The position numbers were made by a program, and so were the translations under genes. Positions 1 through 64,000 of a DNA stretch of 64,000 nucleotides are shown here, in pieces. The stretch covers positions 27,470 through 91,469 of the forward strand of contig JAISJW010000001.1 of assembly GCA_031261175.1 (NCBI GenBank). The letters run 5' to 3'. The stretch is from Lactobacillales bacterium (GTDB lineage: Bacteria > Bacillota > Bacilli > Lactobacillales > Streptococcaceae). Each line of letters opens with the position of its first letter. The first letter of the stretch is position 1. The notes beneath the pieces are model-generated. The model ran no database searches. It was not told where the DNA came from and saw nothing but the letters and a program-made list of their open reading frames with translations.

Positions 1-121
1 CTGAATCCGCTAACGCCTCGGTCGGGTCGAACGCATTGTTCAGGCTAAAAAGCGAGATCGGGAAAAGAAGGACGATCACGAGAATGCTTGTTAATATGGT
101 GTTGATAAGTTTCGAATTCAT
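1..121 (-). CDS. N-terminus of a secreted or membrane-anchored protein, cut by the window edge
   Basis: Only the first 40 codons are present. They start at ATG (119-121), preceded by a GGGGG-type ribosome binding site. The translated start has Lys at position 4 and a hydrophobic stretch at about residues 9-27 (TSILVIVLLFPISLFSL), which is a signal peptide or membrane anchor. The rest lies beyond the left edge, so no function can be given. The reading frame is open to the edge. Confidence 0.6.
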   Translation of the reverse strand, partial: MNSKLINTILTSILVIVLLFPISLFSLNNAFDPTEALADS

Positions 122-614
122 CGCGCGTCCCCCTTTCTCGTGGTCTTTCACTCTATATTATATCACGGAACGTTAGATACTTTAAGTAAAACGGCCGAAA
201 AAATTCACTTGCAATTTAACCTCGACAAATCCCACCCTGTTTTCGCACTTTCGAGCTACTAAAATCCTCTACTGTGTTTTAAGGCCTTTCTTAGTGATTT
301 CGAAGGCTGAAACCCCTAAAAATCGCCTTAAAACACAGTAGGACGTTTTGACCGGCCAATTTGAGTTAGAAAACGGCAAAAGTCCCCTGATTTCCGACTT
401 TGAACTAGTATATATTCTATACTAGCTCAAAGTCGGAAATCAGGGGGACATTTTTGCGGATTTTTCCGGTTTGGAGCGGGTATGTACTCAGAATGCCCGA
501 AAAGTTCACAAAAAGAGGTAAAAATGGACAGTTTGAGTACATATAGAATCTATATGTACTCAAACCGTCCATTTTAGGGTTATATTTTAAAGTTTTCGGT
601 CATTTGGAGTCACA
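122..614. other. Gene-free stretch with three stacked long hairpins
   Basis: No credible gene is seen here. The stretch holds three consecutive inverted repeats. The first has arms 266-285 and 325-342 around a 17-bp perfect core (CTACTGTGTTTTAAGGC). The second has arms 382-412 and 418-449 (about 30 bp, nearly perfect). The third has arms 521-546 and 550-575 with a 3-nt loop. The last lies about 40 bp past the argB stop codon and could end the arginine operon transcript. None has a classic U-tract in the argB direction. Confidence 0.75.
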
Positions 615-1466
615 TTACTTAGTGATCAGCGTTCCGATACCTTTGACCGAGAATAATTCGATGATTAGCGAGTGGTCGATGCGGCCGTCGATGATTGTCA
701 TCGAGTTTAGTCCCCACTTCATGGCTGTAATGCCGGCTTGGATTTTGGGAATCATCCCGCCGTTGATTACGCCGTCTTCTATTAGCTCTTTAGCGCGCTC
801 AATCGTCATTTCGCTGATCATCGATTCTGGATCGTTGACGTCAAGCATCACGCCTGGAATATTGCTAAGCAAAATAAATTTCTCAGCGTTCAAGGCCGCC
901 GCTATTTCAACCGCAGCCGTATCGGCATTGATATTGTAAGTCTGCCCGTCCGCATCCACGCCTAAAGGTGCGATAACTGGAATATAGCCTTTATCAAGAG
1001 CCATCTCGATCGCTTCAGTATTGATATGCGTGATATCGCCGACATAGCCGAGCCGCACATCTTTTTGCGCCGCCACGACCATTTTTCCATCAATCCCTGA
1101 CAAACCGATTGCCTTAGCACCTGTGCGGTCCAAATCGACCACCAAGTCCTTGTTGACTTTACCGGTCAGCATCGCTTTCACAACATCGATTGTTTCGTCG
1201 TTCGTCACGCGCAACCCATCGATAAATTCGTTTTCGATACCCAGTTTTTCAAGCATTCCGCTAATTGCTGGTCCACCGCCGTGAACGAGCACGACTTTGA
1301 CGCCAATTGACTGTAACAAAGCGATATCCTTCATAACTGAAAGCTTCAACTCGTCAGTTTCCATCGCGTTTCCGCCGAATTTGATGACCATCGTTTTTCC
1401 ATTAAATTGCTGCATATATGGCAGCGCTTCGAGTAAAATCGAAGCCATTTTTTTCTTCTGTTCCAT
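615..1466 (-). CDS. argB: Acetylglutamate kinase
   Basis: ArgB phosphorylates N-acetylglutamate with ATP, the second step of arginine synthesis, in the cytoplasm. The family is recognised by the N-terminal KFGGNAM segment and the glycine-rich VLVHGGGPAIS loop that binds acetylglutamate, then the NINADTAA segment and the C-terminal GGMIPK motif of the nucleotide site. About 283 residues is normal. I place the start at ATG 1466, one base after the argF stop, because GAGG near the end of argF is well spaced for it. An ATG nine bases upstream lies too close to that GAGG. It is the last gene of argCJDFB. Being translated right after argF suggests coupling. Confidence 0.95.
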   Translation of the reverse strand: MEQKKKMASILLEALPYMQQFNGKTMVIKFGGNAMETDELKLSVMKDIALLQSIGVKVVLVHGGGPAISGMLEKLGIENEFIDGLRVTNDETIDVVKAMLTGKVNKDLVVDLDRTGAKAIGLSGIDGKMVVAAQKDVRLGYVGDITHINTEAIEMALDKGYIPVIAPLGVDADGQTYNINADTAAVEIAAALNAEKFILLSNIPGVMLDVNDPESMISEMTIERAKELIEDGVINGGMIPKIQAGITAMKWGLNSMTIIDGRIDHSLIIELFSVKGIGTLITK

Positions 1467-1467
1467 T

Positions 1468-2412
1468 TTAGGCATCCTCTAACAACAGTTTCATCAGCAG
1501 CGCGCCCTGTGCGTAAAGGCGGTTGTGCGCTTCGTGGTAAATCAGCGAGTGCTTCGGATCGTCAATAATCTCCGCAGTCACCTCTTCCCCGCGGTGCGCC
1601 GGCAGGCAGTGCATAAAGTAATAATCGTCCTTGGCAAGTTTCACCAGCTCCGAATTCACTTGGTACTTCCCGGCAAAAACTTTCTCGCGCTCGCCAAATT
1701 CTTCCTCGTCACCCATCGACGCCCACACATCCGTAAAGATAAAATCGGCATCTTTGACGGCATCCGCCGGCTCAATCACAATCTCAACTACCGACCCAGA
1801 TTCTTCGGCAATTTTCTTCGCCTGCGCAACGATTTCAGCGTTCGGCGCATATTCCGCCGGTGTCGCAATCGACACGTCCATCCCTAAAATTGTAGCTCCT
1901 AATAAATAAGAGTGCGCCATATTATTTCCATCTCCGATATAAGCGATTTTCACGCCCTCAGTCGTTCCGTGAACTTCTTGAATTGTTTGGAAATCTGCTA
2001 AAATCTGACACGGATGGTGCAAGTCGGTCAACGCATTGATGACTGGAACGCTCGAATAATGAGCCAATTCTGCCACCATATCATCGCTGAAAGTTCTAAT
2101 CATAATCGCATCAACCATTCCCGCCAAAACGTTCGCCGTATCAATCGTCGGCTCACCGCGCGCGATTTGTGTATTTTTCGCATCAAGCACGACTGCATTT
2201 CCGCCTAAACGGTACATTCCGCTCTCAAACGAAACGCGAGTCCGCGTCGAAGATTTTTCGAAAATCATCGCTAAAACTTTCCCTTTTAGGGCCTGCGAAT
2301 ATTTTGCGGGGTTAGCGCGGAAGTCACTTGCCAAATCGAGAATCGACAGGAATTCTGCCTTTGAAAGTTCGGTTAAATCGAGTAAATCTTTGTTGAAAAT
2401 TGGGTTAGCCAT
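1468..2412 (-). CDS. argF: Ornithine carbamoyltransferase
   Basis: The enzyme transfers carbamoyl phosphate to ornithine to give citrulline. Family marks are FEKSSTRTRVSFE (carbamoyl-phosphate site, STRTR), the HPCQILAD motif, DVWASMGDE (ornithine loop SMG type) and HCLPAHRGEEV near the C-terminus. The length of 314 residues is typical. The start is ATG 2412, which follows a strong AAGGAGG. Longer in-frame upstream residues are arginine-rich and overlap argD. The start overlaps the argD stop by 8 bases, so the two are probably translationally coupled. An anabolic role is inferred from the surrounding biosynthetic genes; a catabolic arcB role is unlikely because no arcA or arcC is nearby. Confidence 0.94.
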   Translation of the reverse strand: MANPIFNKDLLDLTELSKAEFLSILDLASDFRANPAKYSQALKGKVLAMIFEKSSTRTRVSFESGMYRLGGNAVVLDAKNTQIARGEPTIDTANVLAGMVDAIMIRTFSDDMVAELAHYSSVPVINALTDLHHPCQILADFQTIQEVHGTTEGVKIAYIGDGNNMAHSYLLGATILGMDVSIATPAEYAPNAEIVAQAKKIAEESGSVVEIVIEPADAVKDADFIFTDVWASMGDEEEFGEREKVFAGKYQVNSELVKLAKDDYYFMHCLPAHRGEEVTAEIIDDPKHSLIYHEAHNRLYAQGALLMKLLLEDA

Positions 2413-5723: not shown

Positions 5724-5756
5724 TATGTTTCCTCGCTATTTGTAAATAATATCAAT

Positions 5757-5785: not shown

Positions 5786-5890
5786 TATTTTTTATTCAGA
5801 ACTGTGCATATCGAGCGCTATTTTGCGCTTTCTACTATACTATCGTTCTTTGTATAAAAAGTAAAGAAATTTGCGCTTTTTCTTATAATT

Positions 5891-8845: not shown

Positions 8846-10009
8846 TTAAACTACTTCGTTTACTAAACCGGTGTTGATATCAATTTTAAACTGGGTGCTT
8901 CCTACCATAAAGTAGATTAAATCGCCATTGCGCTGAACGACGGTGTAAGATGAGCCGTAACTTTTCAGACTGTTCGCTGCAGCTTTCAAAACGGCGTCCT
9001 GGGTCATACTTGGATTCCAACTCAAAATTTCGTTACCGATATGAGCGTGATCATAAGTAATAATCGCATTGTGATTGGCATTAAACTGATTTCTAATCTG
9101 ATGCAAATAATTATTGTAAGCTGTCTGCAAAATCGCATCTTCACACTTGTTCGCCACAAATGGCAAAACACCATTCACGTGTATCAAATCTTGGCGGAGC
9201 GCACTAGCATTAAACGCACCAAGCACACCTCGAGCTTTTCCTTCCGCATCAAACTTAGGCGCCGGTATCGCGGCGCTCGCATTCGGAGTTGTCACGGGTT
9301 TCGGAGCCGGAGCTGTCGTCGGCGTTGGAGCCGGTGCCGGAGTTGGCGTTGCAACTTCTTCCCCGCCTGTAACCGGTAAATTCGCAGCAGGGTCAGCCAC
9401 TGGACTTGCCTCGGTCAACTCGCGCGTCCTCACAACGCTCACTAGCTCGATCAACTCAGCCTGAGTCTTCGCCATTTTTTGTTTATCATCCGAGTCGATC
9501 AACGCCTGAATCGATTTTTCGAGCGCCTTGAACGTCTTCGCTTCCGCCTCGTTTAATTTCCCTTTATCCTTGTAATCTAGAAATTCTTCCCAGGCATCTT
9601 TCAAATTCTTGCTGGCAAGTTTAACGTCCTCACTGCGGGCGTTCGTGTTCCCTTCCGTCTTTTCAACCAGCGAAATAAACTTCGTGTTGAACGCCAAAAT
9701 CGATTTATAACTTCCGGTCGCAACAATCCGTTTCGCCTTCTTCACCTGGGCTTTTAGCTCAGTTTTTTCTTTATCCGTAATCGAATCACTGGCAAGTAAC
9801 GCCTCGGCCCTAGCCTCGTAGTTTTCAATTGCCACGCGCGCACTGTCGAGGAGCTGTCGTTCGTTGACGGCGGTCGCTTTATTATCCAATTGCTGCTGGC
9901 TGACGCCGGCGAAGGCAAGTCCCACGATTAGGGCAACTACCGCAAGTCCTAGCGGCATCGTAAACGTAAAAAGTTTGCGTTTACGTCTGGAATTTTTATT
10001 TTCGTTCAT
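8846..10009 (-). CDS. Membrane-anchored extracellular protein with helical and Pro/Thr-rich regions
   Basis: A 387-residue protein of unknown function. A basic start (NSRRKRK) is followed by one hydrophobic segment at about residues 17-36, a signal anchor. Residues about 40-200 are charged and helix-rich, with coiled-coil character and many Lys, Glu and Ala. Residues about 205-250 form a Pro/Thr/Ala linker (TPTPAPAPTPTTAPAPKP). The last 135 residues look like a compact domain with Tyr, Asn and His. An LPVTGG at about residue 213 resembles a sortase signal but is internal with no hydrophobic tail, so it is probably not one. It follows the protease operon in the same direction but behind a terminator, so it is likely transcribed separately. 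Confidence 0.7.
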   Translation of the reverse strand: MNENKNSRRKRKLFTFTMPLGLAVVALIVGLAFAGVSQQQLDNKATAVNERQLLDSARVAIENYEARAEALLASDSITDKEKTELKAQVKKAKRIVATGSYKSILAFNTKFISLVEKTEGNTNARSEDVKLASKNLKDAWEEFLDYKDKGKLNEAEAKTFKALEKSIQALIDSDDKQKMAKTQAELIELVSVVRTRELTEASPVADPAANLPVTGGEEVATPTPAPAPTPTTAPAPKPVTTPNASAAIPAPKFDAEGKARGVLGAFNASALRQDLIHVNGVLPFVANKCEDAILQTAYNNYLHQIRNQFNANHNAIITYDHAHIGNEILSWNPSMTQDAVLKAAANSLKSYGSSYTVVQRNGDLIYFMVGSTQFKIDINTGLVNEVV

Positions 10010-36838: not shown

Positions 36839-36955
36839 GGCACACCTCGCTAATAGTAGTAGTCTAATCTATTATATCAAAAATAGCGAGTATGTCAAAA
36901 TCAGGATTAAGTGATTTTGATGTAGTTGTCCATTTCTTCCTCGCCGGTATTTTTG

Positions 36956-37082
36956 TCGCTGACGACCGCGCCCACTTCGTCGTCGTCAAAACCGACAAAT
37001 TCTACTACCCAAACACTCTGAAACGTTTCATCGGTAAATAGTATAAACGAAAAGCCAAGTCATCTGCGACTTGGCTTTTTTA
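36956..37082 (+). pseudogene. Relic copy of the decarboxylase 3' end and its terminator
   Basis: From about 36960 the sequence matches 36297-36417 with about a dozen differences in 120 bases. It encodes RAHFVVVKTDKFYYPNTLKR then FIGK and stop, against KFDYPNTLKRFTGK in the intact gene, and keeps the hairpin terminator. The match starts abruptly. The sequence to its left is unrelated to the decarboxylase. Confidence 0.85.
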
Positions 37083-37083
37083 T

Positions 37084-37139
37084 TACGTAAATTTCTGCAA
37101 TTCTCGTATGAAATCGCCCTTTTCCTACCAGATTTACGC
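37084..37139. repeat. Copy of a 53-56 bp intergenic repeat (R1)
   Basis: Terminal inverted repeats (ACGTAAAT / ATTTACGC) bound the core GTATGAAATCGCCCTTTT. Related copies lie at 48899-48953, 55839-55891 and, inverted, 55911-55963. From here to 37262 no gene is seen. Confidence 0.6.
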
Positions 37140-37262
37140 AAAGCGGAAACACATCGCCTTCCTCTCCCGAAGAGGTGTGAACATTTATACCGGTGGTATT
37201 ATTATGACCCTCGTCTTTTTGATTGCACTTATATGATTATTAAAGCTAATCGCGAGCTCTAT

Positions 37263-37300
37263 AAAAAACAGCTAACCCCTTGTGGAATTAGCTGTTTTTT
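37263..37300. terminator. Terminator after the DUF4143-type ATPase gene
   Basis: AACAGCTAA...TTAGCTGTT with A-run and T-run on opposite sides. On the minus strand it follows the ATPase stop codon directly. Confidence 0.8.
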
Positions 37301-38502
37301 TAGTAAGTAGGCAATCCATTTTCTAGGAAGTCGACAATATGGACGATTGGGATGCCATCTGTCATGCCGATATCTTCGAGTTTACCGGTGATGACTATCT
37401 TTTGGAATGAGTCCTTGATGGCGATTAAGTTATCCGTTTCGTGCGTGTTCTTGGGCAATTCCAGCGCTACTTGGACATACTTGGTCACGCCGTCTTTGAC
37501 CACAACGAAGTCCACTTCCTTGTTATCAAGCTTGCCGACGAATATTTCATAGCCCAGTCGTCTCAGTTGGAGGTAGACTAGATTTTCGATTTGACCACCC
37601 AGATTCCCAGCAAAACGTCCAAGCACTTTATTGCGCAAACCAACATCGGTGACGAAGTATTTTGCGCCACTGCGCAAGCGTTCTTTGCCACGAATATCGT
37701 AGCGACTCACCTTGTAGAACAAGAACGCCTCTTCAAGTAGTTCTAAGTAGCGTGAAACACTTTTAGTTGTCGTCTTCATATTGGCAGATGTTAGCGTGTC
37801 GGCGATGGTTTTCACCGATATCAACTGTCCGATATTATCTAACAAAAATTTAATAACACGTTTTAGGACATCGATCTCTCTGATTTTGCCGCGTTCAGCT
37901 ATATCATTCAACACAATTGTATCAAAAACGCTATGCAAGGCATTCGTTTTCAGTGCCGCTGTTTTTTGCAGGACAACGGCGGGAAACCCGCCGAATTCAG
38001 CGTATTCATCATAAAGTTGATTGGTTGTCACTTCATCTGCCGTTTTGTTAAATGTGGTAAACTCAGTGAATGATAGCGGCAACATCTCAATCGTAATTGT
38101 TCTACCTGATAATAATGTTGCTAACTCTCCTGATAACATCTTACTGTTAGAGCCTGTAACATAGATATCGCTAGAAAATGATACTCGCAGGCTATTAACA
38201 ACGCGTTCCCAATCTTCAACGAGCTGAATCTCATCGAACAGGAAATACGTTGTTTTGCCGTCTATAACTGTTTCCTTCAAATAGGCAAACAACGCTTTAG
38301 CCGTTAGCAGGTGGTCATAATTCATATCCTCAAAATTTATATAAATTATATTTTCTTCTGCCACTCCGTTTTCTAGCAGGTGGTCTAAGAACATTTTTAA
38401 TAGGAACGACTTGCCTGCTCGGCGAACACCGGTGATTACTTTGATAAACTCCGAATCCTTTGCTTCAACAATCCAATCTAAATATATTGGTCTAACTATC
38501 AT
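37300..38502 (-). CDS. AAA-family ATPase with DUF4143-type C-terminal domain
   Basis: 400 residues. The Walker A motif GVRRAGKS lies at 25-32, the Walker B-like YFLFDEIQLVEDWE at about 95, and the sensor-like VTGSNSKML near 125. The C-terminal half ends with the DUF4143-type segment ENLVYLQLRRLGYEIFVG and KEVDFVV, which resembles a nuclease-like core. Such proteins are common in accessory regions. Their role is unsettled; defence or stress functions have been suggested. The gene is single and starts after AAGGGAAG. A perfect 15-base palindrome covers its -10 region, suggesting repression. Confidence 0.85.
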   Translation of the reverse strand: MIVRPIYLDWIVEAKDSEFIKVITGVRRAGKSFLLKMFLDHLLENGVAEENIIYINFEDMNYDHLLTAKALFAYLKETVIDGKTTYFLFDEIQLVEDWERVVNSLRVSFSSDIYVTGSNSKMLSGELATLLSGRTITIEMLPLSFTEFTTFNKTADEVTTNQLYDEYAEFGGFPAVVLQKTAALKTNALHSVFDTIVLNDIAERGKIREIDVLKRVIKFLLDNIGQLISVKTIADTLTSANMKTTTKSVSRYLELLEEAFLFYKVSRYDIRGKERLRSGAKYFVTDVGLRNKVLGRFAGNLGGQIENLVYLQLRRLGYEIFVGKLDNKEVDFVVVKDGVTKYVQVALELPKNTHETDNLIAIKDSFQKIVITGKLEDIGMTDGIPIVHIVDFLENGLPTY

Positions 38503-38521
38503 ATCTACACTTCCCTTCTTC

Positions 38522-38536
38522 TGGTATATTATACCA
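38522..38536 (-). promoter_or_regulatory. Palindromic operator over the ATPase promoter
   Basis: TGGTATATTATACCA is a perfect odd palindrome. On the minus strand it contains TATAAT, the likely -10 hexamer of the ATPase gene, 20-odd bases before its start. A protein binding it would block transcription. Confidence 0.5.
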
Positions 38537-39006
38537 CGAAGAGAAGTATACTTCCACTATTTTATATAATTCCTCGATTGAGTAAGTATAACCTTAGATT
38601 GCCGAGAAAACGACACCCTTTCCTTGCTGCCGCACCCAATATTTTAACCGTTGCACCTGATGTCGGCACATTAGTCGCTTGCGCAAAACTAAAAAGGCCT
38701 TCGATCACTCGAAGCCTGCTAGCCCACACTGGTAGGCGGCTCGTGCGGTTGTTAATTGTATTAAGGTGTGATAGTTATGTCCCTCGGCACGGTTGGTTCA
38801 ATACCTTAGGAAGTTGGGTAAACCCTGAGCAGTTGTTTTTTTTGCGAGGACTTATGTTTAGGAGGGAGTAGCGTTTGAGTTTTGATTGCGGTTGTGAATT
38901 TGAAAATGTTAGGTAAAGTAAAGGCATCGACCTCAGTATGTCGATGCCTTGTTTGATATAATATCGTTCACCACAAGTCTGTCCGGCAAGATCAAAATTG
39001 CACTGT
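38537..39006. other. Gene-free stretch in the accessory island
   Basis: I find no credible gene. It contains an inverted repeat near 38695-38722 (AGGCCTTCGA-TCAC-TCGAAGCCT) and a strong hairpin AAGGCATCGAC...GTCGATGCCTT at 38921-38950 that could terminate rightward transcription. Possible frames lack homology cues. The base pattern is mixed, consistent with remnants of earlier insertions. Confidence 0.5.
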
Positions 39007-39156
39007 TTATTTTTTGCCGCGATTCCCCAACGTGCTCATAACGCCAATTGCTACCACGTTTGCGATTGTGCTAAGCGCTATCACGCCGCCAACTGCCAGC
39101 TCCGCAAACCATGCTACACGCTTGGCTTCAGGTGCCATCGGATTCTTTTTGCTCAT
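39007..39156 (-). CDS. Small single-span membrane peptide (49 aa)
   Basis: A frame of 49 codons with GGGTGA before its ATG. The product has a charged start (SKKNPMAPEAKR), one hydrophobic span (FAELAVGGVIALSTIANVV) and a basic end (GNRGKK). The start overlaps the stop of the 31-residue frame upstream in an ATGA arrangement, which supports translation of both. No family recognised. A bacteriocin-like or phage-derived membrane peptide is conceivable. Confidence 0.45.
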   Translation of the reverse strand: MSKKNPMAPEAKRVAWFAELAVGGVIALSTIANVVAIGVMSTLGNRGKK

Positions 39157-39248
39157 AACATCACCCTACTTTCTAGCAACTTCTCCAGACACTCAGCCCG
39201 CTCCTTAGCTGACGACTCGCGCGATTCTTCTTTATTAATTTTCAACAT
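39153..39248 (-). CDS. Small charged peptide (31 aa) upstream of the membrane peptide
   Basis: The ATG at 39246-39248 follows a strong TTGGAGGA site. The 31 residues are highly charged (KINKEESRESSAKERAECLE) and likely helical. It is translationally coupled to the 49-residue membrane peptide by ATGA overlap. It lies just after the point where the AbiEii-like frame breaks off, so the pair may belong to whatever truncated that gene. Confidence 0.4.
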   Translation of the reverse strand: MLKINKEESRESSAKERAECLEKLLESRVML

Positions 39249-39278
39249 AATAATCCTCCAATTTTCACGTCAGCAAGG

Positions 39279-39464
39279 TCAAGAGCCGACCATTGAGGCA
39301 ATTAAGAAACCACCTTTTAAGATGAAATTATTCTTGTATTTAGATAGATATATTCGCTCTAACAGACGTTCGAGCATATAATTTTGCAGTACTAGTTGAG
39401 CCGAGATTTTCTTTTCTTTGGAGATGTTTTTGATAATCGATTTTAGCTGCATTGCATTTTTCAA
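39279..39464 (-). pseudogene. Truncated AbiEii-type nucleotidyltransferase toxin
   Basis: 61 residues remain: an N-terminal helix region and FILKGGFLIASMVGS, which corresponds to the LKGGTSL-type motif that begins the nucleotidyltransferase site in AbiEii toxins. The family is normally near 280-310 residues and the intact relative at 48984-49925 has 313. The catalytic aspartates that follow this motif are missing, so the toxin is dead. It overlaps the end of the antitoxin gene by four bases. Confidence 0.75.
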
Positions 39465-40054
39465 AGTAGTACCTCCAAGTATGACCTGACTTTTTCTTCA
39501 ACTTTTAGCATCTTTGCATATTCCGATAATAACGGAATGTTTTTATTCGACTTAGTTACATATCTTTTAAACGCTTCGGCGATTACGCCAACTTCAACGT
39601 TGCTTCTAGGTCTCAAAATATCGCAGAGCGTTTTCTCGCAATTGTAGGCCATAAGCTTATTACCTGATGGCGAATCTACTTTTTCTACGCCCAAACTATA
39701 TAGTGATTCAACCGCTCGGTTTGCGATAACGCCTTCGCTCTTAACTTTTTTTAAATTATAATCATTGGGAAACGTCATTGAATATGATAGTGGCGTCCTA
39801 TCCGTAAGGTCATGCAAAAACAGTGCGGTTTCTTTCGAGAAGATACCTTTCTTAAATCTAGCTTGTAGATTGATAAATTCATCTTCCCATATTCCTGGTA
39901 AAGTATAGATGCCGCGCTCAACTCTTTCAAGGAGCCCCTTTTTCACTAAATCAATTAGATACTGGCGAGGTATTTTAGCAGCTTGCACCATCGCCGTTGT
40001 CACAATACCGTTATTCTGTTTAGCCATATCGATTACTAAATCTGCATTTGACAT
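39461..40054 (-). CDS. AbiEi-type antitoxin/transcription regulator
   Basis: 197 residues. The N-terminal winged helix (about 1-55: NNGIVTTAMVQAAKIPRQYL ... GLLERVERGIYTLPG) and the following FSKETALFLHDLTDRTPLSYSMTFP region fit the AbiEi family (type IV toxin-antitoxin). These proteins repress their own operon and counter the AbiEii toxin. Its toxin partner here is truncated, so the antitoxin may be an orphan. It starts after GAGGTGAG. It is a different subtype from the antitoxin at 49906. Confidence 0.8.
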   Translation of the reverse strand: MSNADLVIDMAKQNNGIVTTAMVQAAKIPRQYLIDLVKKGLLERVERGIYTLPGIWEDEFINLQARFKKGIFSKETALFLHDLTDRTPLSYSMTFPNDYNLKKVKSEGVIANRAVESLYSLGVEKVDSPSGNKLMAYNCEKTLCDILRPRSNVEVGVIAEAFKRYVTKSNKNIPLLSEYAKMLKVEEKVRSYLEVLL

Positions 40055-40130
40055 TTATCTCACCTCGCTTACTTTTTACTTATACGCCCTTTATTATATC
40101 ATATAAGGGTTTAAAAGTAAAGATATGCAT

Positions 40131-40685
40131 CTAACCCTCAACCTTAGTTCCGGCTTTAAAATCGAAGATTAGTTCGTCTTTGCCGATTACTTCAACGAAA
40201 TCAACAAGAGCAGCCCAAACTTCCTCATCAAACTCAGTTATAAGCTCAAGTTTTGACAGGTCATCAAGGAATAACTCGATTTTCTCTCGCCGTCCTTTTC
40301 GCAACGTTATCTCAGCATCAACTTCCGTCAGTTGTTTCTCTGCTGCTTCTAACCTTAAAATAAGATTGTTGTATTTCACTTCGTATTCACTTTGGTTAAT
40401 CGGTCGCCGAGCATTATCATTAATGCACTCATTGATGAGCGAGTCGAGAATGTCGACTTCGTTGCTCACTTCAATTACCTGCTTCCTCAATTTTTCAGTT
40501 GAGAATAACAACTCTTTAACTTCGTTGAAGTTGTCAATCATCTTTTTCTTATCACCGATTATCTGGTTAACAGCCTTGATAAATTTCTCTTTAACAAAGC
40601 CATCATCAAGGCGAGGCGTCGAACACTTTTTGCCCCGCGAATACCTTTTGTTGCATTGCCAAATGCGACGTTTGTATTTACTGTT
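40131..40685 (-). pseudogene. C-terminal remnant of a large serine recombinase
   Basis: The open frame upstream of the first ATG (40541) also encodes recombinase sequence: RRIWQCNKRYSRGKKCSTPR is the zinc-ribbon end and DDGFVKEKFIKAVNQII the following segment. The coiled-coil part and a typical C-terminus (FDEEVWAALVDFVEV ... FDFKAGTKVEG) follow. A TAG stops the frame at 40686-40688 and the catalytic N-terminal domain is absent. This marks a decayed integrative element. Confidence 0.85.
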
Positions 40686-41017
40686 CTAGTACCCGATGTT
40701 TTCGTCGAAGTTCGAAATTATTGCCGGCGCGTTTACAAATTATTTTCATAACGAAAAGCCACTATTCTCTTGGGCTATTTGTAAAATTTTTTCTTTATTT
40801 GTCTTAATCTTAATCCACCAACTTTCGTGCTAAAACCGCAACTACATCTTAGCACAAAAGTTACGCAATTCAATATTTTTATTTTTTTATAAACCTAAAT
40901 CTCAATCATAATTTCGCCTTTTATCTAAAAACAGGTTGGTTCTTCACTGTGTAGGTGAAGAACCAGCCTGTTTTGGCCTAGGCCAAATTGCGATTTTGCA
41001 TTTCCTATAAAGCTTTA
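40686..41017. other. Gene-free AT-rich stretch with hairpins
   Basis: Sequence upstream of the recombinase remnant is AT-rich with no gene. An imperfect repeat GTGCTAA...TTAGCAC lies near 40829-40860. A strong hairpin with arms 40928-40947 and 40955-40974 (AAAACAGGTTGGTTCTTCAC and complement with one offset) lies beyond the RhuM stop and may be its terminator. Confidence 0.6.
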
Positions 41018-42088
41018 TTATAAATCTAATAACGCATTTTCGTTTTCATCGAAAAAGCGATCGAAGTCACTTGCAAACAATTTGTCTTGGACAATACGGA
41101 ATTTTTCAAATTCGGTTTCAGCGTAAAGTTTAGCTTCTTCGTGCGATATTTTTCCGGCATCACATAGAATTTGGTTTCCGTTGAATTCCAAGAAACCATC
41201 GAGGCGACTTGCCCAATCTTCCATCGACATGGGGATTTTGCGCTCGGCTTGGTATTCGGCGAAATCCAAATAGAGCGATACTATTCTCTCTAGGAACCGC
41301 ATTTCTTCTTCATTTAGATAATTTTTGGCAATTGAAACATCTGCTTTAATTATTTTCCCGTCAGGTGCTGCTCCCCACGACGTTAGTCCCATATTGTTTG
41401 ATTCCGCATCGGCACGCTCGACAATCAATTCAGCCGCAGTGTGTCTATGTACGGCATAGTGAAGTTTGTTTTGCACTAATTTAAAGAACTCACGCGTTTT
41501 AGCGGCATCCCTATCATAGTCAAACGAGGTTGCATAAATATCTGTCACTTTTTGATAAAATTTGCGTTCTGAAAGTCTGATTTCTCGGATAAATTGAAGT
41601 TGGCGTTCAAAGTAATCATCCGTGAACATGTGGCCTTTCTTCTGACGCTCAACGTCCATAACCCAACCTTGAATAGTATAATCTTTTACAATTTGCCCTG
41701 CCCACTTGCGGAATCGAACGGCACGCTCATTGTTTATTTTGAAACCTACTGCAATTATTGCTTGCAGATTGTAGTGTTTCGTATTATAATTTTTGCCATC
41801 TGCGGCAGTTATCCGGAAATTCCGGACAACTGAATCTTCATTTAATTCATTGTCATTGAAGATGTTTTTTAGATGCTCGTTGACAGTTCTAATATTAACC
41901 CCATACAACTCAGCCATCATCTTTTGCGTCAACCAAACATTCTCATTCTCATAACGCATTTCAACACTTGTTTCGCTATCGCCAGTTGCTGCAATATACG
42001 TCAAATATTCTGTGACACCGCTCGTTAATTTTGCATTTTCGCGTTCGCTCGCTTTCAAATAATTCACCTTCTTGTACTTTTCTAACAC
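41018..42088 (-). CDS. RhuM-family protein
   Basis: 356 residues. The family pattern is clear: YENENVWLTQKMMAELYGV, NIRTVNEHLKNIF, VVRNFRITAADGKNYNTKHYNLQAIIAVGFKIN and RFRKWAGQIVKDYTIQGW. The C-terminal part (about 165-340) is also typical. RhuM is named from a Salmonella pathogenicity island. Its molecular activity is not established, and it is frequent on mobile elements and near restriction systems. It lies in the island beside the recombinase remnant. No partner gene is visible. Confidence 0.88.
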   Translation of the reverse strand: MLEKYKKVNYLKASERENAKLTSGVTEYLTYIAATGDSETSVEMRYENENVWLTQKMMAELYGVNIRTVNEHLKNIFNDNELNEDSVVRNFRITAADGKNYNTKHYNLQAIIAVGFKINNERAVRFRKWAGQIVKDYTIQGWVMDVERQKKGHMFTDDYFERQLQFIREIRLSERKFYQKVTDIYATSFDYDRDAAKTREFFKLVQNKLHYAVHRHTAAELIVERADAESNNMGLTSWGAAPDGKIIKADVSIAKNYLNEEEMRFLERIVSLYLDFAEYQAERKIPMSMEDWASRLDGFLEFNGNQILCDAGKISHEEAKLYAETEFEKFRIVQDKLFASDFDRFFDENENALLDL

Positions 42089-55972: not shown

Positions 55973-57739
55973 TCAATTTTTGACGGCGACGATGACTTTT
56001 TCTTCGCCGATTTCACCTTTTTCGTAAAGAATGGTGAATTGCAGGTCGTATTGCTGCGTATAGAAGTCCTGCGTTGGGATAAACGCGACATCACCCTTTT
56101 GGATGTCTTTTTTGCGGAGCTTCCAGTCGCGGTAATTGCTGAATTTATCGACGGTCATAATCTTCCCCTTCTCGTCCGAGTAAGGATTATTTTTCGTCTT
56201 CTGCCATTCATAAGGGCTGATCTCGTCGTGGAGCAGGACGTACGGCACGTTCGACGTATATTCGTTCAGGAAATTGAAATAAATATGTTTCGGGTGCACC
56301 TTGTGCGCCGCATCAAGCGACTTGTCGAGCTTCTCCATATTGTTCATATAACCCGTATGCCGGTCGATATTCAAATGACCGACGTAAGCGACACAAAAGA
56401 CAGTCGTTGAAACAACATAGGCAAGTGCCACGAGCGTAGTCGTGAACACTTTGCTAATTGCTTTGCTATCTAGAACAATCGCGATGCCTAGTCCAATCGA
56501 AACGAGCACGGGCCCGTGGAGCAAATTCCAGTGGTTCGCGTTAGGTTTGACGAAAAGCATCACCGGAAGCAAGCTTAGGAAAATTATCGCAAATAATTTA
56601 TACAGGTCAGCCACGCCCACACGGTAACGGCTCTCAGCATATTTCTTATCGACTAAAAGTCGCGTTTTGTCTTTAATAACGAAACTGATGAAGAAAATCC
56701 ACAAGAAAACGAAACCTACTATATAGTAGTAACCAAATTGACTTGTCGTGTTCCAATAAAGTTTATCGCCACCGACAAACATCATATAAACGCCAGACAG
56801 ATAGTTTTTCAGAACAGTAACTACCGGATTTCCATCACTCAAATCAACCATCGAAGCTTGCGCCCGGTTGAAAATCATTTTCGGAATTGTCATCAGCCAA
56901 AAATGGTTCGTGTGATTCAGACTCGGTATAAACGACTTCAGCGCATAAATAAATTGCGGCAGCAGAATCACCGCGCTCGAAACCGCCAGCACAATATACT
57001 GCTTAACGTTCACCAGTTTGCGGTGAATTGCCCAGATCGTGAGAAGACTTGCCAGGGCAAGTAGCCACATCCAGCTGACGTTGTAGCCCCACGCGGTCAG
57101 GGCAAAGAGCAAACAACCGATGAGTTTGAAGCGGAACTTGCCCGTGCGGACGCCGAGGAAGAAGGCGATCACGGCGAGGTTCGAGATTTGGACGACGATG
57201 TTGCAGTCGAGGACCCAGCGCGTGTTTTGGATGTAGTAGGGTGCTGTGACCATCGAGAGCATCAGGCCGAGGCGCATATTTTCGGCGAAGCCTTCGGACA
57301 TGTAATCGCCGATTTTTTCGAGGTAGAAGATGCCGAAATAGTAGGCGTAGATGGTGAAGAGGGTCAGGATGATGAACGGCAGGCGGAAGACGAATACGCT
57401 CGTTCCGAAAAGTTTGACGAACGGGATCAACAGGTACATGTAGAGCGTCGATTGGCCGAACCCGAAATACGATTGCAAGTAGGTCGGCATCGTGAACAGG
57501 TGCGAGTCAACGCCGAAGCGCGCCATGTTGTGCGTCTCATACATCAGGCTCGCCTCGTCGATAAAGATCGACGGAATCTTATAAAAATTAAACGTCACGA
57601 AAAATGCAAATCCTAAAATCAGGGCAATTGAAAGACAATTTTTGAAGTTGAATTTTTTGTGGTATTTTTTGATCGGGATTATGCAAAGTCCCAGCATCAT
57701 CAACGTAATTAAAGTTGATGTGAAAATTGATAATAACAT
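55973..57739 (-). CDS. Polytopic GT-C glycosyltransferase (family 39/PMT-like)
   Basis: 588 residues with about 11-12 hydrophobic spans in the first 470 and an outward C-terminal part. The first extracellular loop carries an acidic pair (IFIDEASLMYETHNMARFGVDSH, about 58-80) as expected for the catalytic Asp/Glu of lipid-linked sugar transferases, followed by MPTYLQSYFGFGQSTLYMYL. Such enzymes move sugars from polyprenyl-phosphate donors to envelope polymers or proteins. The substrate is unknown. It starts after TAGGAG. It is not in an obvious operon. Confidence 0.82.
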   Translation of the reverse strand: MLLSIFTSTLITLMMLGLCIIPIKKYHKKFNFKNCLSIALILGFAFFVTFNFYKIPSIFIDEASLMYETHNMARFGVDSHLFTMPTYLQSYFGFGQSTLYMYLLIPFVKLFGTSVFVFRLPFIILTLFTIYAYYFGIFYLEKIGDYMSEGFAENMRLGLMLSMVTAPYYIQNTRWVLDCNIVVQISNLAVIAFFLGVRTGKFRFKLIGCLLFALTAWGYNVSWMWLLALASLLTIWAIHRKLVNVKQYIVLAVSSAVILLPQFIYALKSFIPSLNHTNHFWLMTIPKMIFNRAQASMVDLSDGNPVVTVLKNYLSGVYMMFVGGDKLYWNTTSQFGYYYIVGFVFLWIFFISFVIKDKTRLLVDKKYAESRYRVGVADLYKLFAIIFLSLLPVMLFVKPNANHWNLLHGPVLVSIGLGIAIVLDSKAISKVFTTTLVALAYVVSTTVFCVAYVGHLNIDRHTGYMNNMEKLDKSLDAAHKVHPKHIYFNFLNEYTSNVPYVLLHDEISPYEWQKTKNNPYSDEKGKIMTVDKFSNYRDWKLRKKDIQKGDVAFIPTQDFYTQQYDLQFTILYEKGEIGEEKVIVAVKN

Positions 57740-58927: not shown

Positions 58928-60190
58928 TTAGAACGCTTTTGCGCCGATATCTGTGCGGTAGAACATACCGTCATTTTTCAAATCGTTTAATTCGTTGTAA
59001 ACTTTTTCTTGGGCTTCTTTCAAAGTGTCACCTTCAGCGAAAACTAAGTAAACGCGGCCGCCATTTGCGACTAATTTACCTTCGGCGTCATTGGCAACAC
59101 CAGCAAAAATCGCAGTAGAGTCAACAAGCTTCGTAGTATCGGGAATTTTAGCACCCTTATCATACGACCCAGGATAACCGTCCGCCGCAACCACTACACC
59201 AAGCGTGTAACCGTCCTCTTTAAACGTCACGACCGGTTTGCGATCGTTCAACAAATCATCGATAATCAAAGCAAAATCGCTAGTCAGACGAGGCAAAACA
59301 ACCTGCGTTTCAGGATCGCCGAAACGAGCGTTAAACTCGATAACTTTCGCGCCGTCCTTCGTCGCAATCAGCCCAGCATACAAGATTCCGCGGAAGTAAT
59401 TGCCATCCGCTTTCATCCCTGCCGCAGCTGGCTTCACGATCTCTTCGACAGCCTTGTCGACCATCTCCTGCGGAATTTGAGGAACCGGAGCGTACGCGCC
59501 CATCCCACCAGTATTCGGCCCGCGGTCGCCGTCATACGCGCGCTTGTGGTCCTGCGCGATAACCATCGGATAAACCTCTTCGCCGTTGACGAAGGCAAGT
59601 AGCGAAAATTCCTGACCGTCGAGGAAGTCCTCAACGACAACGCTCGCACCGCTGCCACCAAAAGCGTGGTCAAGCAGCATATCTTTCAGCGCTTCAACAG
59701 CCTGATCAAGCGTCTCAGCAACCACTACACCTTTACCAGCGGCAAGTCCATCCGCCTTGATGACGATTGGCGCACCCTTAGCTTCAACGTAAGCGCGGGC
59801 AGCTTTGTAGTCAGTGAACGTTTGGTGGTTAGCCGTTGGAATATTGTAGCGATTCATCAAGTTTTTTGCAAAGTCTTTTGAGCCTTCGATCATCGCCGCA
59901 TTTTTGTGCGGACCGAACGCCTTAAGGCCAGCAGCCTCGAAGTCGTCGACGATTCCAGCCATCAAAGGAATTTCCGGACCTATGAACGCCCAGTCGATAT
60001 TATTTTCTTTGGCGAACGCAATCAACGCTTCGTGATCATCTTCGGCGATATCAACTAATTTGATGCCGTCACTTGCCATGCCGGGGTTCCCCTTAGCACA
60101 GTAAACTTCGCCCACTTTATCAGATTCTTTAAATTTCTTTCCGATGGAATGCTCGCGCCCACCAGAACCGATTACTAAAATATTTAGCAT
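58928..60190 (-). CDS. purD: Phosphoribosylamine-glycine ligase
   Basis: It joins phosphoribosylamine and glycine with ATP, the second step of purine synthesis. 420 residues of the ATP-grasp fold. VIGSGGREHSIGKKF at the start, PIVIKADGLAAGKGVVVA (ATP loop), GDRGPNTGGMGAYAPVP and ARFGDPETQVVLPRL are diagnostic. It follows purH after a 124-base structured gap. Start after TAGGAG. Confidence 0.96.
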   Translation of the reverse strand: MLNILVIGSGGREHSIGKKFKESDKVGEVYCAKGNPGMASDGIKLVDIAEDDHEALIAFAKENNIDWAFIGPEIPLMAGIVDDFEAAGLKAFGPHKNAAMIEGSKDFAKNLMNRYNIPTANHQTFTDYKAARAYVEAKGAPIVIKADGLAAGKGVVVAETLDQAVEALKDMLLDHAFGGSGASVVVEDFLDGQEFSLLAFVNGEEVYPMVIAQDHKRAYDGDRGPNTGGMGAYAPVPQIPQEMVDKAVEEIVKPAAAGMKADGNYFRGILYAGLIATKDGAKVIEFNARFGDPETQVVLPRLTSDFALIIDDLLNDRKPVVTFKEDGYTLGVVVAADGYPGSYDKGAKIPDTTKLVDSTAIFAGVANDAEGKLVANGGRVYLVFAEGDTLKEAQEKVYNELNDLKNDGMFYRTDIGAKAF

Positions 60191-60206
60191 TGTAAACTCC
60201 TAATTT

Positions 60207-60321
60207 TAATGTAATCCACTAGAGATAAGATTTGCGCGAGGACAAGGAGAGTTAGGCGACGTTGCTTGACAGCAACGAGCCGAAGCTCGACGATGTAATC
60301 GCGCAAAGATTATCCTAGTGG
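60207..60321 (-). ncRNA. Cloverleaf-like structured element in the purH-purD gap
   Basis: Arms 60216-60239 and 60299-60321 pair over about 23 bases with few mismatches (CCACTAG...CTAGTGG, TTTGCGCGA...TCGCGCAAA). They enclose at least two inner hairpins: CGTTGCTTGACAGCAACG (60260-60277) and CGAGC-CGAA-GCTCG (about 60276-60290). The outer stem takes in the purH stop codon. The fold sits within the pur transcript just before the purD binding site, so it could affect purD expression or mRNA processing. Not a tRNA: no anticodon loop or T-loop sequence is seen. Confidence 0.55.
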
Positions 60322-61856
60322 CGGAAATGACGAACCCCAGTGAAGATCATCGTCATTCCATATTTGTCGGCAGCCTCGATCGACTCCTCGTCACGAACGC
60401 TTCCGCCCGGCTGAATGATCGCTTTGATCCCCGCTTTGGCAATTTCTTCAACGTTATCCGCAAACGGGAAGAACGCATCTGAGGCAAGTACTGCCCCATC
60501 CAAGCGGTCTTTGACTTGCTCGATGGCAATTTTAACCGAACCGACGCGGTTAGTTTGACCCGGACCAACGCCTAATGTTTGGTTGGCGTTCGAGATTAAA
60601 ATACCATTTGATTTAACATATTTAATTGATTTCCAAGCGAATTCCAAAGCTTTTTGTTCTTCAGCTGAAGGGTTGCGTTTTGTCACAACAGTCCAGTCGC
60701 TAGGTTTTTCTTCGATGACGTCTTGGTTTTGAACCAGCAAACCACCGACAACGCCAGTGTATTCAGGTTCGCTTTCGCTCGCCTTAGCTCCTGCGAAATC
60801 AAGTTCTAAAATGCGTAGGTTTTTCTTTTTATTAGTCAACACTTCAAGCGCTTCGGCAGAATAACTTGGCGCGATGATGATTTCTAAAAAGATAGGGTGC
60901 ATTTTTTCAGCAGTCGCCTTATCCACTTCGCGGTTTAACACGACGATTCCGCCGAAAATCGAAACCGGGTCTGCCGCATACGCGTAGTCCCACGCCGCTT
61001 CAATTGTGTCAGCTTGGCCGATTCCGCAAGGGTTCATATGTTTCAAAGCAACCACGGTTGGCGCAGTGAAATCGCGAGCGATACGAATTGCCGCATCGGC
61101 GTCGCGAATATTGTTGAATGACAATTCTTTCCCGTTCAATTGTTTTGCTTGGGCAATCGAGTAATCAGTCGGAAGTGCCGATTGATAGAAATCCGCGTCT
61201 TGTTGCGGGTTTTCGCCGTAACGTAAAGGTTGCAACAAATCGTAAGTGATCGTTAGTTTTTCAGGTTTAGCTTCACCGACCTGAGCCGTGAAGTATTCAG
61301 CGATCAACGCGTCATAAGCGGCTGTATGACGGAAAACTTTCGCCGCTAAGCGTTTGCGCGTGTCCAGTGATGTCGCCCCACTTGCCGATAGCTCGTCTAA
61401 AACGACCGAGTAGTCAGCCGGGTCAACAACCACAGTAACCGAAGCGTGGTTTTTCGCCGCTGAGCGAAGCATTGACGGGCCGCCGATGTCGATGTTTTCG
61501 ACCGCGTCAGCATAAGTCACGTCGGGTTTCAAGATCGTTTCTTTGAACGGATACAAATTCACGCAGACGAAGTCGATCGTTTCGATTCCGTGCTCTTTCA
61601 TCGTGTCGACGTGCGACTGCAAATCGCGTCGTCCTAACAATCCGCCGTGGATCATTGGGTGCAAAGTTTTCACGCGCCCGTCTAGCATTTCAGGGAAGTT
61701 AGTCACGTCGTCGATTGCGATTGTCGCAACACCGTTATCGTCCAAATATTTTTTTGTGCCGCCGGTCGAGATGATTTCGACCCCCGCTGCTACTAAGCCT
61801 TGCGCGAATTCTAGCACGCCCGCTTTGTCGCTTACACTGATTAAAGCTCTAGTCAT
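60315..61856 (-). CDS. purH: Bifunctional AICAR transformylase/IMP cyclohydrolase
   Basis: The last two steps to IMP. 513 residues. The N-terminal cyclohydrolase has [28 protein letters not shown] and [16 protein letters not shown]. The transformylase shows [15 protein letters not shown] (with the catalytic Lys-His) and [12 protein letters not shown] near the C-terminus, ending VRHFRH. The start overlaps the end of purN by eight bases. Confidence 0.96.
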
Positions 61857-62406
61857 TTTTGCTCACTCCTAATTCTTTTAGTACCCTCGGGTAAATTTCG
61901 TATTCTTTCTCGTGGATCCGCGCCTCGAACGTCTCAATCGTGTCGTCCGCGAGAATCGGAACCCTCTCTTGGGCAATTATCGGCCCGGTATCGACACCAC
62001 TGTCGACATAGTGCACCGTGACCCCGCTTTGCGTAACGCCGGCTTCCCAGGCATCTTCGATGCCGTGCGCCCCAGGAAATTCGGGAAGATACGCTGGATG
62101 AATATTGACGATTTTGCCTTCGTAGGCGTTTAATAAAGTCTCGCTGATAATTTTCATATAACCGGCTAAGATTACGTAATCTATTTCGTATTGATCCAAA
62201 AGATCAACGATCGCTTGTTCAAACTCAGCTTTCGAGCCTTTATCCTTGATTGTCCAAGCGTAGCTGGGCACTCCAAGTTTTTCGGCGCGCTCTATTACAT
62301 ATGCGCCCGGTTTGTCGCAGAAGAGGAATTCAACTTTGAATTGCTCTGCGATAACTTGGAAGTTGGTGCCGCCCCCACTTGCCAAAACGGCTATTTTTTT
62401 TGTCAT
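61849..62406 (-). CDS. purN: Phosphoribosylglycinamide formyltransferase
   Basis: It transfers formyl from 10-formyl-THF to GAR. 185 residues from the ATG at 62406, one base after the purM stop. Longer upstream codons are Arg-rich and belong to purM's end. [13 protein letters not shown] at the start, the catalytic segment [21 protein letters not shown] with Asn-His, and [19 protein letters not shown] are family marks. Confidence 0.95.
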
Positions 62407-62407
62407 T

Positions 62408-63448
62408 TTATGCCTCGTAAACGACCGGCGAGTCAGTCTTCTCGATGACTTCACCCATCACAAAGTATTTTTCGCCGCGAGCGTCAAGGTCGGCCTTCAG
62501 AGCATCGAGCTTCGCAGGCGAAACCGCAAGCAACATACCGATACCCATGTTGTAGATCTCGAACATTTCAGCATTCGGAATCTCACCGTATTTTTCAAGA
62601 GCTGCGAAAATCGGCGGAATTTCCCAAGAACCAAGCTTGATTTTAGCTGCCAAGTTGTCCGCGAACATACGCGGAATATTTTCAAGGAAGCCACCACCTG
62701 TGATGTGGGCAACCCCGTTAAGCAATTCTTTTTGAACCAAAGGCAGAAGAGCCTCAACGTAAAGACGAGTTGGAGTCAACAAGACCTCGCCAAGTGGCGC
62801 ATTCAGCTCAGGAAGAACCTCTTTACCTGTGAAGCCGTTCTTGTCGTAGAAGACCTTGCGGACAAGCGAGAATCCGTTCGAGTGAACGCCGCTTGAAGGC
62901 AGACCGACCAAGACGTCGCCCGGTTTAACGTTTTCGTGACCGTTGATCATCTTCGATTTCTCAACAACACCGACCGCAAAACCAGCCAAATCGTAATCGT
63001 CATCGCCATACATACCAGGCATTTCGGCAGTTTCCCCGCCGATCAAGGCGCAGTTCGATTGCACGCAACCTTCCGCAACGCCAGCGACCACTTGCTCAAG
63101 TTTTTCAGGAATGTTTTTCCCAGTCGCGATATAATCAAGGAAATATAAAGGCTCAGCGCCGACCGCGATGATATCGTTGACGCACATCGCCACGCAGTCG
63201 ATCCCGATCGTGTCGTGCTTGTCCTCTTTCAGCGCCACCAAAAGCTTCGTCCCAACACCGTCAGTTCCCGAAACCAAAACCGGCTCCTTCACGTTAAGCG
63301 CGCTCAAATCAAAAGCACCGCCAAAACCACCGATAGCCCCCATTACACCTAGGCGTTCAGTCCGTTTGACGTGTTTTTTAATCCGTTCAACTACTTCGTA
63401 ACCTGCTTCAACATCAACACCAGCATTTGCATAAGCGTTTTTAGTCAT
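62408..63448 (-). CDS. purM: Phosphoribosylformylglycinamidine cyclo-ligase
   Basis: It forms the imidazole ring (AIR) with ATP. 346 residues. [65 protein letters not shown] and [16 protein letters not shown] are typical. First pur gene in the window; upstream pur genes, if any, are not adjacent, because a long hairpin-rich gap precedes it. The start follows GGAGGAAATG. Confidence 0.96.
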
Positions 63449-64000
63449 TACATTTCCTCCATTTGGTTGTTTATTCCCTATAATTATACCAAATTCTCAG
63501 GCCGTTAAGTAGCGCAGACTTAAAAAGTGGGCAAGTCTTAACGCTCCCGGCACCCTAATCGCATCAGAGCCGATTTTTAACTAATTCGAGGCTCGAATCA
63601 GTTAAAAAACGGCCTGAAAGCGATTAGTATATTTCTAACTCGCTCCTTTTTAACAAAAAACGCGAGAAATTGATGTTTTTGGTTAAAAAAGAGCGAGTTT
63701 AAATTTTACAGGATGATAAAGTGGTCGCTCATCAGTTTGGATGCCACTATTAAAACTTTGTACTTTTAGGAAGTTTTAATAGTTATAACACACTTAACTA
63801 TTAAAACTTTCATTTTTTAACCAGTTTTAATAGTTAGCCTTCGATATTTTGCTCTATATGCAAATAAAAAAAGCAGGCATTAAGGGTTGTATACTTTCTA
63901 ATGGGGTTTGTTCGAAAACTCAAAAGACATATTGATTCCAATTTCTGATAAAATGATTTTACACTACTAAAATCAACCACAAGAAAGAGGAGAATCAATA
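63449..64000. other. Gene-free stretch with repeats up to the right edge
   Basis: No gene is seen. Element A2, a hairpin at 63555-63627, is homologous to A1 after polC. A further hairpin has arms 63637-63654 and 63682-63700 (AACTCGCTC...GAGCGAGTT). Four alternating copies of ACTATTAAAACT/AGTTTTAATAGT lie at 63746-63836, forming two hairpins. At the right edge AGAGGAG at about 63985 on the plus strand looks like a ribosome binding site for a gene starting just outside the window. Confidence 0.65.
63555..63627. repeat. Long hairpin (element A2), homologous to the one after polC
   Basis: Arms 63555-63590 and 63592-63627. The centre (TTAACTAATTCGA ... TCGAATCAGTTAAAAAACGG) is shared with 42651-42723. 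The outer stem differs with compensation: CTAATCGC/GCGATTAG here and CTAGTCGC/GCGACTAG there. Confidence 0.8.

Follow-up and report, generated by a model that had tools for sequence, protein, structure and literature searches.

We report here on GGCAAGT, a 7-nucleotide word that is strongly over-represented, together with its one-base variant GGCAATT (jointly written as GGCAAKT), in a 64,000-nt stretch of DNA (below, the window; contig JAISJW010000001.1 of assembly GCA_031261175.1) from a member of the Streptococcaceae. Judging from the sequence, we consider it probable that this bacterium is naturally transformable and that GGCAA(G/T)T, with its flanks, serves as a DNA-uptake sequence throughout its genome. 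A first-pass annotation of the window had already noticed the word and compared it to the uptake sequences of Neisseria and the Pasteurellaceae; among the readings tested here that analogy fared best, but its portrayal of acquired DNA as avoiding the word and the minor role it gave to GGCAATT needed correction. The excess itself is not in doubt and calls for a sequence-reading protein.

Abundance and distribution of the word

Within the window, 86 copies of GGCAAGT were counted, 41 on the plus and 45 on the minus strand, against a mean of 5.7 and a maximum of 12 in 100 dinucleotide-preserving shuffles; the annotation, scanning by eye, had arrived at about 82 copies in near-equal orientations (41 and 41), with about 8 expected. 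Under an order-3 Markov model, GGCAAGT was the most over-represented 7-mer (86 versus 13.0) and GGCAATT the second (57 versus 16.6), while GGCAAAT remained below expectation (13 versus 18.9), just as had been described. Two of the cited positions were exact and three had to be shifted (Table 1).

The draft genome of the host (1,699,190 bases in 33 contigs, 96.45% complete) was used in full for counts of GGCAAGT, GGCAAKT, and CGGGCAAGTS; tests of composition, codon use, and flanks were performed on 464 or 697 kb, window included (the 697 kb being the window plus 20 and then 14 further stretches of the genome), with genes defined as the longest non-overlapping open reading frames (ORFs) and without a gene finder. 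The complete draft contains 1,993 copies of GGCAAGT, i.e., about 1,170 per Mb or 1 per 0.85 kb (1,015 forward and 978 reverse, contig orientation being arbitrary), compared to 248 (122 and 126) for the reversed word. For GGCAAKT, 3,393 copies were found (1,708 and 1,685, with 205 and 256 for its reversed control), some 1,400 of which are GGCAATT, and the extended form CGGGCAAGTS occurred 191 times against 3 for its reversed control. The Markov count of 7-mers proposed in the annotation, carried out on 464 kb, upheld the excess and ranked GGCAAGT as the strongest 7-mer (565 versus 76.5).

A comparison with related genomes, proposed there as well, confined the excess to the host among the genomes searched. 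In a family set of 336 genomes from 11 genera, in which the host is the sole genome of its genus, none of the 335 others approached its GGCAAGT density, the highest seen being 742 copies in approximately 2.8 Mb (G039). None of 245 other genomes sampled from the order (33 of them from the same family) came near it either, with a top GGCAAKT density of approximately 570 per Mb (G370) versus approximately 2,000 in the host. The purH neighborhood gave a similar picture: the PurH protein of the window is 81 to 83% identical to the best 80 of 580 relatives (79 from Streptococcus and one from Pilibacter), which points to the Streptococcaceae as the family of the host, and the 80 named loci around these genes (1.69 Mb) contain GGCAAGT 251 times, or 0.15 per kb. 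Finally, 17 samples were compared, comprising two host samples as positive controls, two pools of Streptococcus, Pilibacter, and 12 genomes that represent ten other genera; the word was not raised outside the host samples, with at most 14 copies versus 8.6 expected, both small counts. In one genome of the same order (G519), the reversed control TKAACGG outnumbered the query GGCAAKT (2,109 versus 1,166).

Codon choice had been discounted as an explanation in the annotation, and synonymous shuffling (60 shuffles per gene, 574 ORFs, 618 kb) bore this out: GGCAAGT was observed 744 times, against a mean of 93.3 and a maximum of 108, and GGCAATT 565 times against 114.6, while the controls GGCAAAT (131 versus 124.6) and CGCAAGT (125 versus 97.6) stayed close to expectation. 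Copies were, as claimed, present in every codon phase, and all six phases were raised, by 3.7- to 17.6-fold (observed/expected: 129/24.7, 65/17.1, and 163/9.2 in sense; 15/4.1, 88/22.1, and 284/17.6 in antisense). Density was 1.43 per kb outside ORFs versus 1.20 inside. If the G-rich strand, assigned by GC skew in 20-kb chunks, is taken as the leading strand (our inference), there was no leading-strand bias of the kind that the annotation wanted checked, the G-rich strand carrying 272 copies and the opposite strand 293 in the 464 kb, and the ratio being 410:447 in 697 kb (two-sided binomial P = 0.22).

Copies were spaced almost at random, the coefficient of variation being 1.06 with GGCAAGT and 0.97 with GGCAAKT: 20 of 287 ORFs of at least 900 nt lacked GGCAAKT, versus 19.4 predicted by Poisson statistics, and copies were spread evenly, with 33 to 48 per 20 kb across 20 chunks. 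Converging GGCAAKT pairs less than 10 bp apart numbered 44, of which 41 were fused palindromes (GGCAATTGCC, with the core on each strand; 697 kb), and a slight excess of pairs was seen at 30 to 39 bp (15 converging, 6 diverging, and 18 in the same direction). The idea that inverted pairs act as terminators, as in Neisseria, was dropped for want of a clear excess of such pairs.

Precision of the core and a one-sided footprint

When both words were masked from the background, the excess in 697 kb amounted to 857 versus 59 for GGCAAGT and 628 versus 82 for GGCAATT, the latter being the only strongly raised word among the 21 one-base variants of GGCAAGT, with AGCAAGT ranking next. Other one-base variants occurred at 0.44 to 1.8 times expectation, from GGCAATC (30/67.5) and GGCAATA (25/52.3), the lowest, to AGCAAGT (121/83.1) and GGCACTT (99/55.2), the highest; variants of the last base were under expectation. 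A depletion of near misses, regarded at first as a sign of drive, was observed with the Markov model and with synonymous shuffles; since it was mostly lost upon masking, we abandoned it and claim only precision.

The flanking consensus, also on the list of proposed checks, turned out to be an asymmetric footprint, with A upstream and C downstream (464 kb, scored against codon-position-specific base frequencies). Upstream, both words share A at -8 and at -6 as well as G directly before the core (-1); downstream, they share C at +9, +12, and +14. GGCAAGT additionally shows A at -9 and T at -2, and GGCAATT shows A at -5 and a weak C at +14. The C at +12 was found at a frequency of 0.42 versus 0.22 (1,401 sites outside fused palindromes; column χ2 = 378, 3 degrees of freedom) and was raised between genes (0.40 versus 0.19 at 162 intergenic sites) and in all six coding classes, the least in a class of 19 sites (0.47/0.36). 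Over positions +8 to +24, the largest flank χ2/n was 0.27, whereas 60 control words reached at most 0.114 (median, 0.051). The pattern was less pronounced in GGCAAAT (150 sites) and CGCAAGT (136 sites), where C reached 0.29 and 0.28 at +12 and 0.27 and 0.18 at +14, respectively, in values uncorrected for codon position. Because the asymmetric footprint is common to both words, GGCAAGT and GGCAATT look like a single protein-recognized element in two forms; the annotation had rightly seen GGCAATT as raised but had treated it as a side note.

Candidate readers and competing explanations

Profile searches located a comG-type locus at approximately 38.3 to 42.7 kb on contig C4, with comGA (T2SSE), comGB (T2SSF), two ORFs for small pilins (N_methyl) where comGC and comGD would be expected (the latter match with an E value of 0.008, under the cut-off), a weak match to ComGF (E = 2.3e-5; 25.0 bits versus a cut-off of 27), a comGE-like ORF, and a comGG-like ORF; the names GC, GD, GE, and GG are based on gene order and pilin-like N termini. 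ComEA (with SLBB and HHH domains) and ComEC are encoded on contig C18 at 4.3 to 7.5 kb. In the pneumococcal pilus, according to passages of a published study, DNA is bound mainly by ComGF and less by ComGD (PMC12040237), and these two proteins would be the obvious candidates for a reader of the word.

An ORF of about 295 amino acids (aa) lies between comGF and the comGG-like ORF (C4:38503-39406; L030:18504-19406), and its match to a restriction endonuclease (MTES_1575) is weak, with an E value of 0.005, under the cut-off; a PDB sequence search gave no significant match to it (4 hits, E = 0.33 to 0.59), and structure predictions without alignments for this ORF and ComGD were uninformative (pLDDT of 35 and 39). 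Besides comGA, there are two more secretion-ATPase loci (C26:66384-68504 and C4:17554-20575), the former of which also encodes a Flp-like pilin and an ORF resembling a prepilin peptidase; it would seem to be a Tad pilus locus, which seems unusual for the family. A weak second ComEC-like match (C8:13248-13484, in L025; E = 1.4e-4, under the cut-off) contains three internal stops.

How the word might work can be outlined as follows. Either ComEA or a ComG minor pilin at the tip of the competence pilus would bind the 7-bp core plus flanks, with contacts reaching about one helical turn to either side of the core, and this binding would favor the uptake of DNA of the organism's own kind. Transformation would then copy word-bearing DNA into the chromosome more often than word-free DNA, and the word would thus accumulate on both strands, in every frame, and between genes, while staying precise. 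Such a role in uptake would explain the strand neutrality, the precision, the scatter, the one-sided footprint, the restriction to a single lineage among the genomes searched, and the fact that competence genes are present. Our inferences are a reading of the word in the course of DNA uptake, the choice of candidate reader proteins, and a build-up of the copies by molecular drive or by selection for self-DNA. For the more composite picture, i.e., a third independent origin of uptake sequences and the first in a Gram-positive bacterium, with some 3,400 copies and a footprint of approximately 30 bp, read by the competence pilus or ComEA, in a genome that lost RexAB and Chi, the balance tips only slightly in favor.

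The scarcity of the word in acquired DNA is largely a matter of base composition. In 48 genes with less than 38% GC, GGCAATT was scarcer than predicted from the ratio in other genes (21 versus 45.4, P = 4e-5), but GGCAAGT was not significantly so (18 versus 22.9, P = 0.18). The paucity of GGCAAGT in the accessory stretch at 36.4 to 42.1 kb (two copies) and its absence from the 28.1- to 30-kb region (none between 28062 and 30098) were as reported in the annotation. The longest gap without GGCAAGT, at 11.8 to 22.7 kb on contig C11 (10.9 kb, GC content of 0.38), harbors two GmrSD ORFs and, by eye, AbiE-like ORFs, and a stretch at 10.9 to 22.7 kb on contig C3 has a single copy inside. Since synonymous shuffling predicts only 0.28 and 0.74 copies in the ORFs of these two gaps, base composition explains much of them. 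An initial island-avoidance test on four islands, two of them from the annotation, was discarded as circular, because the islands had been picked for their lack of words, and the GC criterion was used instead.

A number of points weigh against an uptake sequence. The genus is represented by a single genome. At 7 bp and with a choice of two letters, the core is looser than known tags, which have 9 to 12 nt. Two antisense classes showed no rise of C at +9, and one sense class showed none at +14. Of the two words, only GGCAATT is significantly scarce in low-GC genes, the effect for GGCAAGT being weak. There was no clear excess of inverted pairs (fraction of GGCAAGT neighbors within 100 bp, 0.108 versus 0.116 expected), and no prophage was identified in a search for tyrosine recombinases only, of which PF00589 yielded two.

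Of the alternatives, binding by a chromosome-organizing or nucleoid-associated protein of this lineage survives best, although we regard it as unlikely. An extended, asymmetric, strand-neutral footprint at near-random spacing fits any abundant sequence-specific binder, as do the even counts per 20 kb; however, the sequence-specific organizers that are known have fewer sites, or sites that are strand polar and graded from ori to ter, and no candidate protein is known.

Next, GGCAAKT might be a Chi site, i.e., a word that halts and switches a helicase-nuclease of the RecBCD/AddAB/RexAB type during double-strand-break repair, for which short, frequent, over-represented, and precise words are typical. 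The annotation held strand neutrality against Chi; that neutrality was confirmed, but it is insufficient on its own to exclude Chi, since strand skew is not universal among Chi sites: passages of PMC5959072 describe no significant skew for those of B. subtilis, S. aureus, and H. influenzae. Other evidence is more telling. No AddA/RexA was found in the host draft, where TIGR02785 stayed under its cut-off with a PcrA-size helicase as the best match, whereas all 20 genomes used for comparison, which cover 18 genera, scored above it with the same profile, even though two of these genomes are only 78 to 82% complete. PF12705 (PDDEXK_1, the nuclease domain of such enzymes) had no matches in the host draft but was found in 12 of 14 control genomes, including Lactococcus lactis and Bacillus subtilis, and PF00580 (UvrD type) matched three ORFs, one of PcrA size (742 aa) and two others (751 and 469 aa), all of them too small for AddA; given a completeness of 96.45%, the absence of RexAB/AddAB is not absolute. 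Passages of the same study (PMC5959072) give GCGCGTG as the Chi site of L. lactis, S. pneumoniae, S. agalactiae, and S. thermophilus. This 7-mer, read by RexAB and over-represented within the same family, occurred 345 times versus 41.7 expected (8-fold) in the 79 Streptococcus loci, whose genera have RexA, with a 336:9 distribution by GC-skew strand, counts that are not independent and a ratio that is inflated by shared ancestry, because all 79 loci represent one purH neighborhood. In 697 kb of the host, GCGCGTG was not raised (108 versus 90.0; 60:48 by strand). The strand-neutral GGCAAKT thus behaves unlike the streptococcal Chi site, and GGCAAGT is also denser than Chi in E. coli (1 per 4.5 kb, according to passages of PMC5959072). 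With RexAB not found and GCGCGTG not raised, a Chi function for GGCAAKT is improbable; the RexAB enzyme and its Chi site rather seem to have gone together in this host.

Equally doubtful is a self-mark of a defense or modification system, in which a methyltransferase or a discriminating nuclease would spare word-rich DNA. Genes of the defense type are present (GmrSD, AbiEi_4), as are adjacent Dam-like and possible endonuclease ORFs, recognized by eye (C26:60747-62988), and the ORF of about 295 aa within the comG locus could be counted here as well, but restriction sites are usually avoided rather than accumulated, and we know of no such system that requires a many-fold excess of a short word. 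Lastly, codon or amino-acid bias, suggested by the fact that the phases richest in copies are Leu-Ala and Ala-Ser, or a family of dispersed repeats can be set aside as sources of the excess, in view of the synonymous shuffles, the rise in every phase, the equally high density outside ORFs, and flanks with weak preferences and no conserved repeat body.

Table 1. Coordinates of GGCAAGT copies and other features in the window (in the rows of start positions, each start is followed by its strand)
Feature	Position	Strand	Remark
purH	60315..61856	-	513 aa; protein comparison
GGCAAGT	1633..1639	+	cited in the annotation
GGCAAGT	9914..9920	+	annotation: 9910
GGCAAGT	33300..33306	+	cited in the annotation
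GGCAAGT	38409..38415	-	one of two in accessory stretch
GGCAAGT	41207..41213	-	other accessory-stretch copy, within RhuM-family ORF
GGCAAGT	57047..57053	-	left half of diverging pair
GGCAAGT	57056..57062	+	right half of diverging pair; annotation: 57060
GGCAAGT	59741..59747	+	annotation: 59745
GGCAAGT	63530..63536	+	final copy of window
Accessory stretch, few copies	36428..42088		GC 0.40 in its ORFs
AAA_14/DUF4143 ORF	37300-38502		accessory stretch
AbiEi_4 ORF	39461-40054		accessory stretch
RhuM-family ORF	41018-42088		accessory stretch
GGCAAGT starts 1-14 of 86	1633+ 2326- 2549+ 3936+ 4572- 4632- 5570- 6236+ 6983- 7259- 8295- 8460- 9404- 9614+		
GGCAAGT starts 15-28 of 86	9791+ 9914+ 11102+ 11139- 11756+ 12281+ 12433+ 12979+ 13163- 13453+ 15766+ 17394+ 18191- 18258+		
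GGCAAGT starts 29-42 of 86	19571- 20538+ 20853- 21051+ 21232- 22680- 25717+ 26354- 26469+ 26517- 28055- 30099- 30656- 31750+		
GGCAAGT starts 43-56 of 86	32511+ 32879- 33300+ 33989- 34152+ 35386- 35484- 35712- 38409- 41207- 43151- 43469+ 44310+ 44580+		
GGCAAGT starts 57-70 of 86	45983+ 46153- 46936- 47071+ 49307- 50456+ 50915- 51486- 51685+ 51742- 52672- 53414- 53994+ 54085-		
GGCAAGT starts 71-86 of 86	55088+ 55402- 55679+ 56420+ 57047- 57056+ 57136- 58226- 58601+ 59594+ 59741+ 60071- 60483+ 61380- 62377- 63530+		

Two further ORFs of the window (8846-10009, 387 aa, and 28829-29860, 343 aa) had no NCBIfam or Pfam match at an E value of 0.001. Elsewhere in the family, two genomes (G012 and G013; loci L136, L137, and L138) carry a strongly raised word, ACTGACAG (31 versus 1.9 in 40 kb of G012), 26 of whose 38 copies in these loci lie outside ORFs, many as hairpins of the form ACTGACAG...CTGTCAGT. 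In another genome (G031; loci L139, L140, and L141), 57 kb contain 12 clustered copies of a palindrome, TGTCAAATTTGACA, and 40 of 41 copies of TGTCAAAT are located inside ORFs.

Relation to known repeated words and significance

The uptake signal sequences (USS) of the Pasteurellaceae consist of a core plus weaker flanks that reach beyond one helical turn on one side, and the host word likewise has an extended one-sided footprint. It further resembles a USS (e.g., AAGTGCGGT) in its very many copies on both strands, in coding and intergenic DNA, and in the rarity of near misses, but it is unrelated in sequence, with a 7-bp core that allows two letters at position 6 and flanks that are A rich upstream and C rich downstream, and it belongs to a Gram-positive host and is known from sequence alone. 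With the DNA uptake sequences (DUS) of the Neisseriaceae, which are read by the minor pilin ComP, it shares many precise, lineage-specific copies and a set of competence-pilus genes; in contrast to DUS, it shows no clear rise in pairing and is at best weakly depleted from low-GC genes, and no ComP counterpart was identified in the host. HIP1 of cyanobacteria is also a very frequent short word inside genes, but HIP1 is a palindrome and GGCAAGT is not, the fused GGCAATTGCC sites notwithstanding.

According to passages of one published account, DUS and USS occur in hundreds to thousands of copies per genome with single deviations being rare, a DUS measures 12 nt, and sequence-tagged uptake has been described for the Neisseriaceae and Pasteurellaceae only (PMC5031613); passages of another report that the DUS of Neisseria form close inverted pairs in terminators and are absent from recently acquired genes (PMC2397512). 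Among open-licence papers, we found no match for the word GGCAAGT itself, and none of the titles and abstract openings listed from the open-licence literature (Gram-positive, Lactobacillus, Firmicutes, and Streptococcaceae) reported a Gram-positive uptake sequence, in line with the annotation, which knew of no established example.

If our reading is true, this would be, to our knowledge, the first uptake tag of a Gram-positive bacterium, and its presence in a monoderm would mean that no outer membrane is needed for self-recognition to evolve. A third independent case would allow molecular drive to be tested against selection for self-DNA, and it would supply a sequence-specific reader alongside the well-studied ComG pilus of the pneumococcus. 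Finally, this genome also seems to have lost both RexAB and Chi, which ties two recombination systems together in a way that can be tested.

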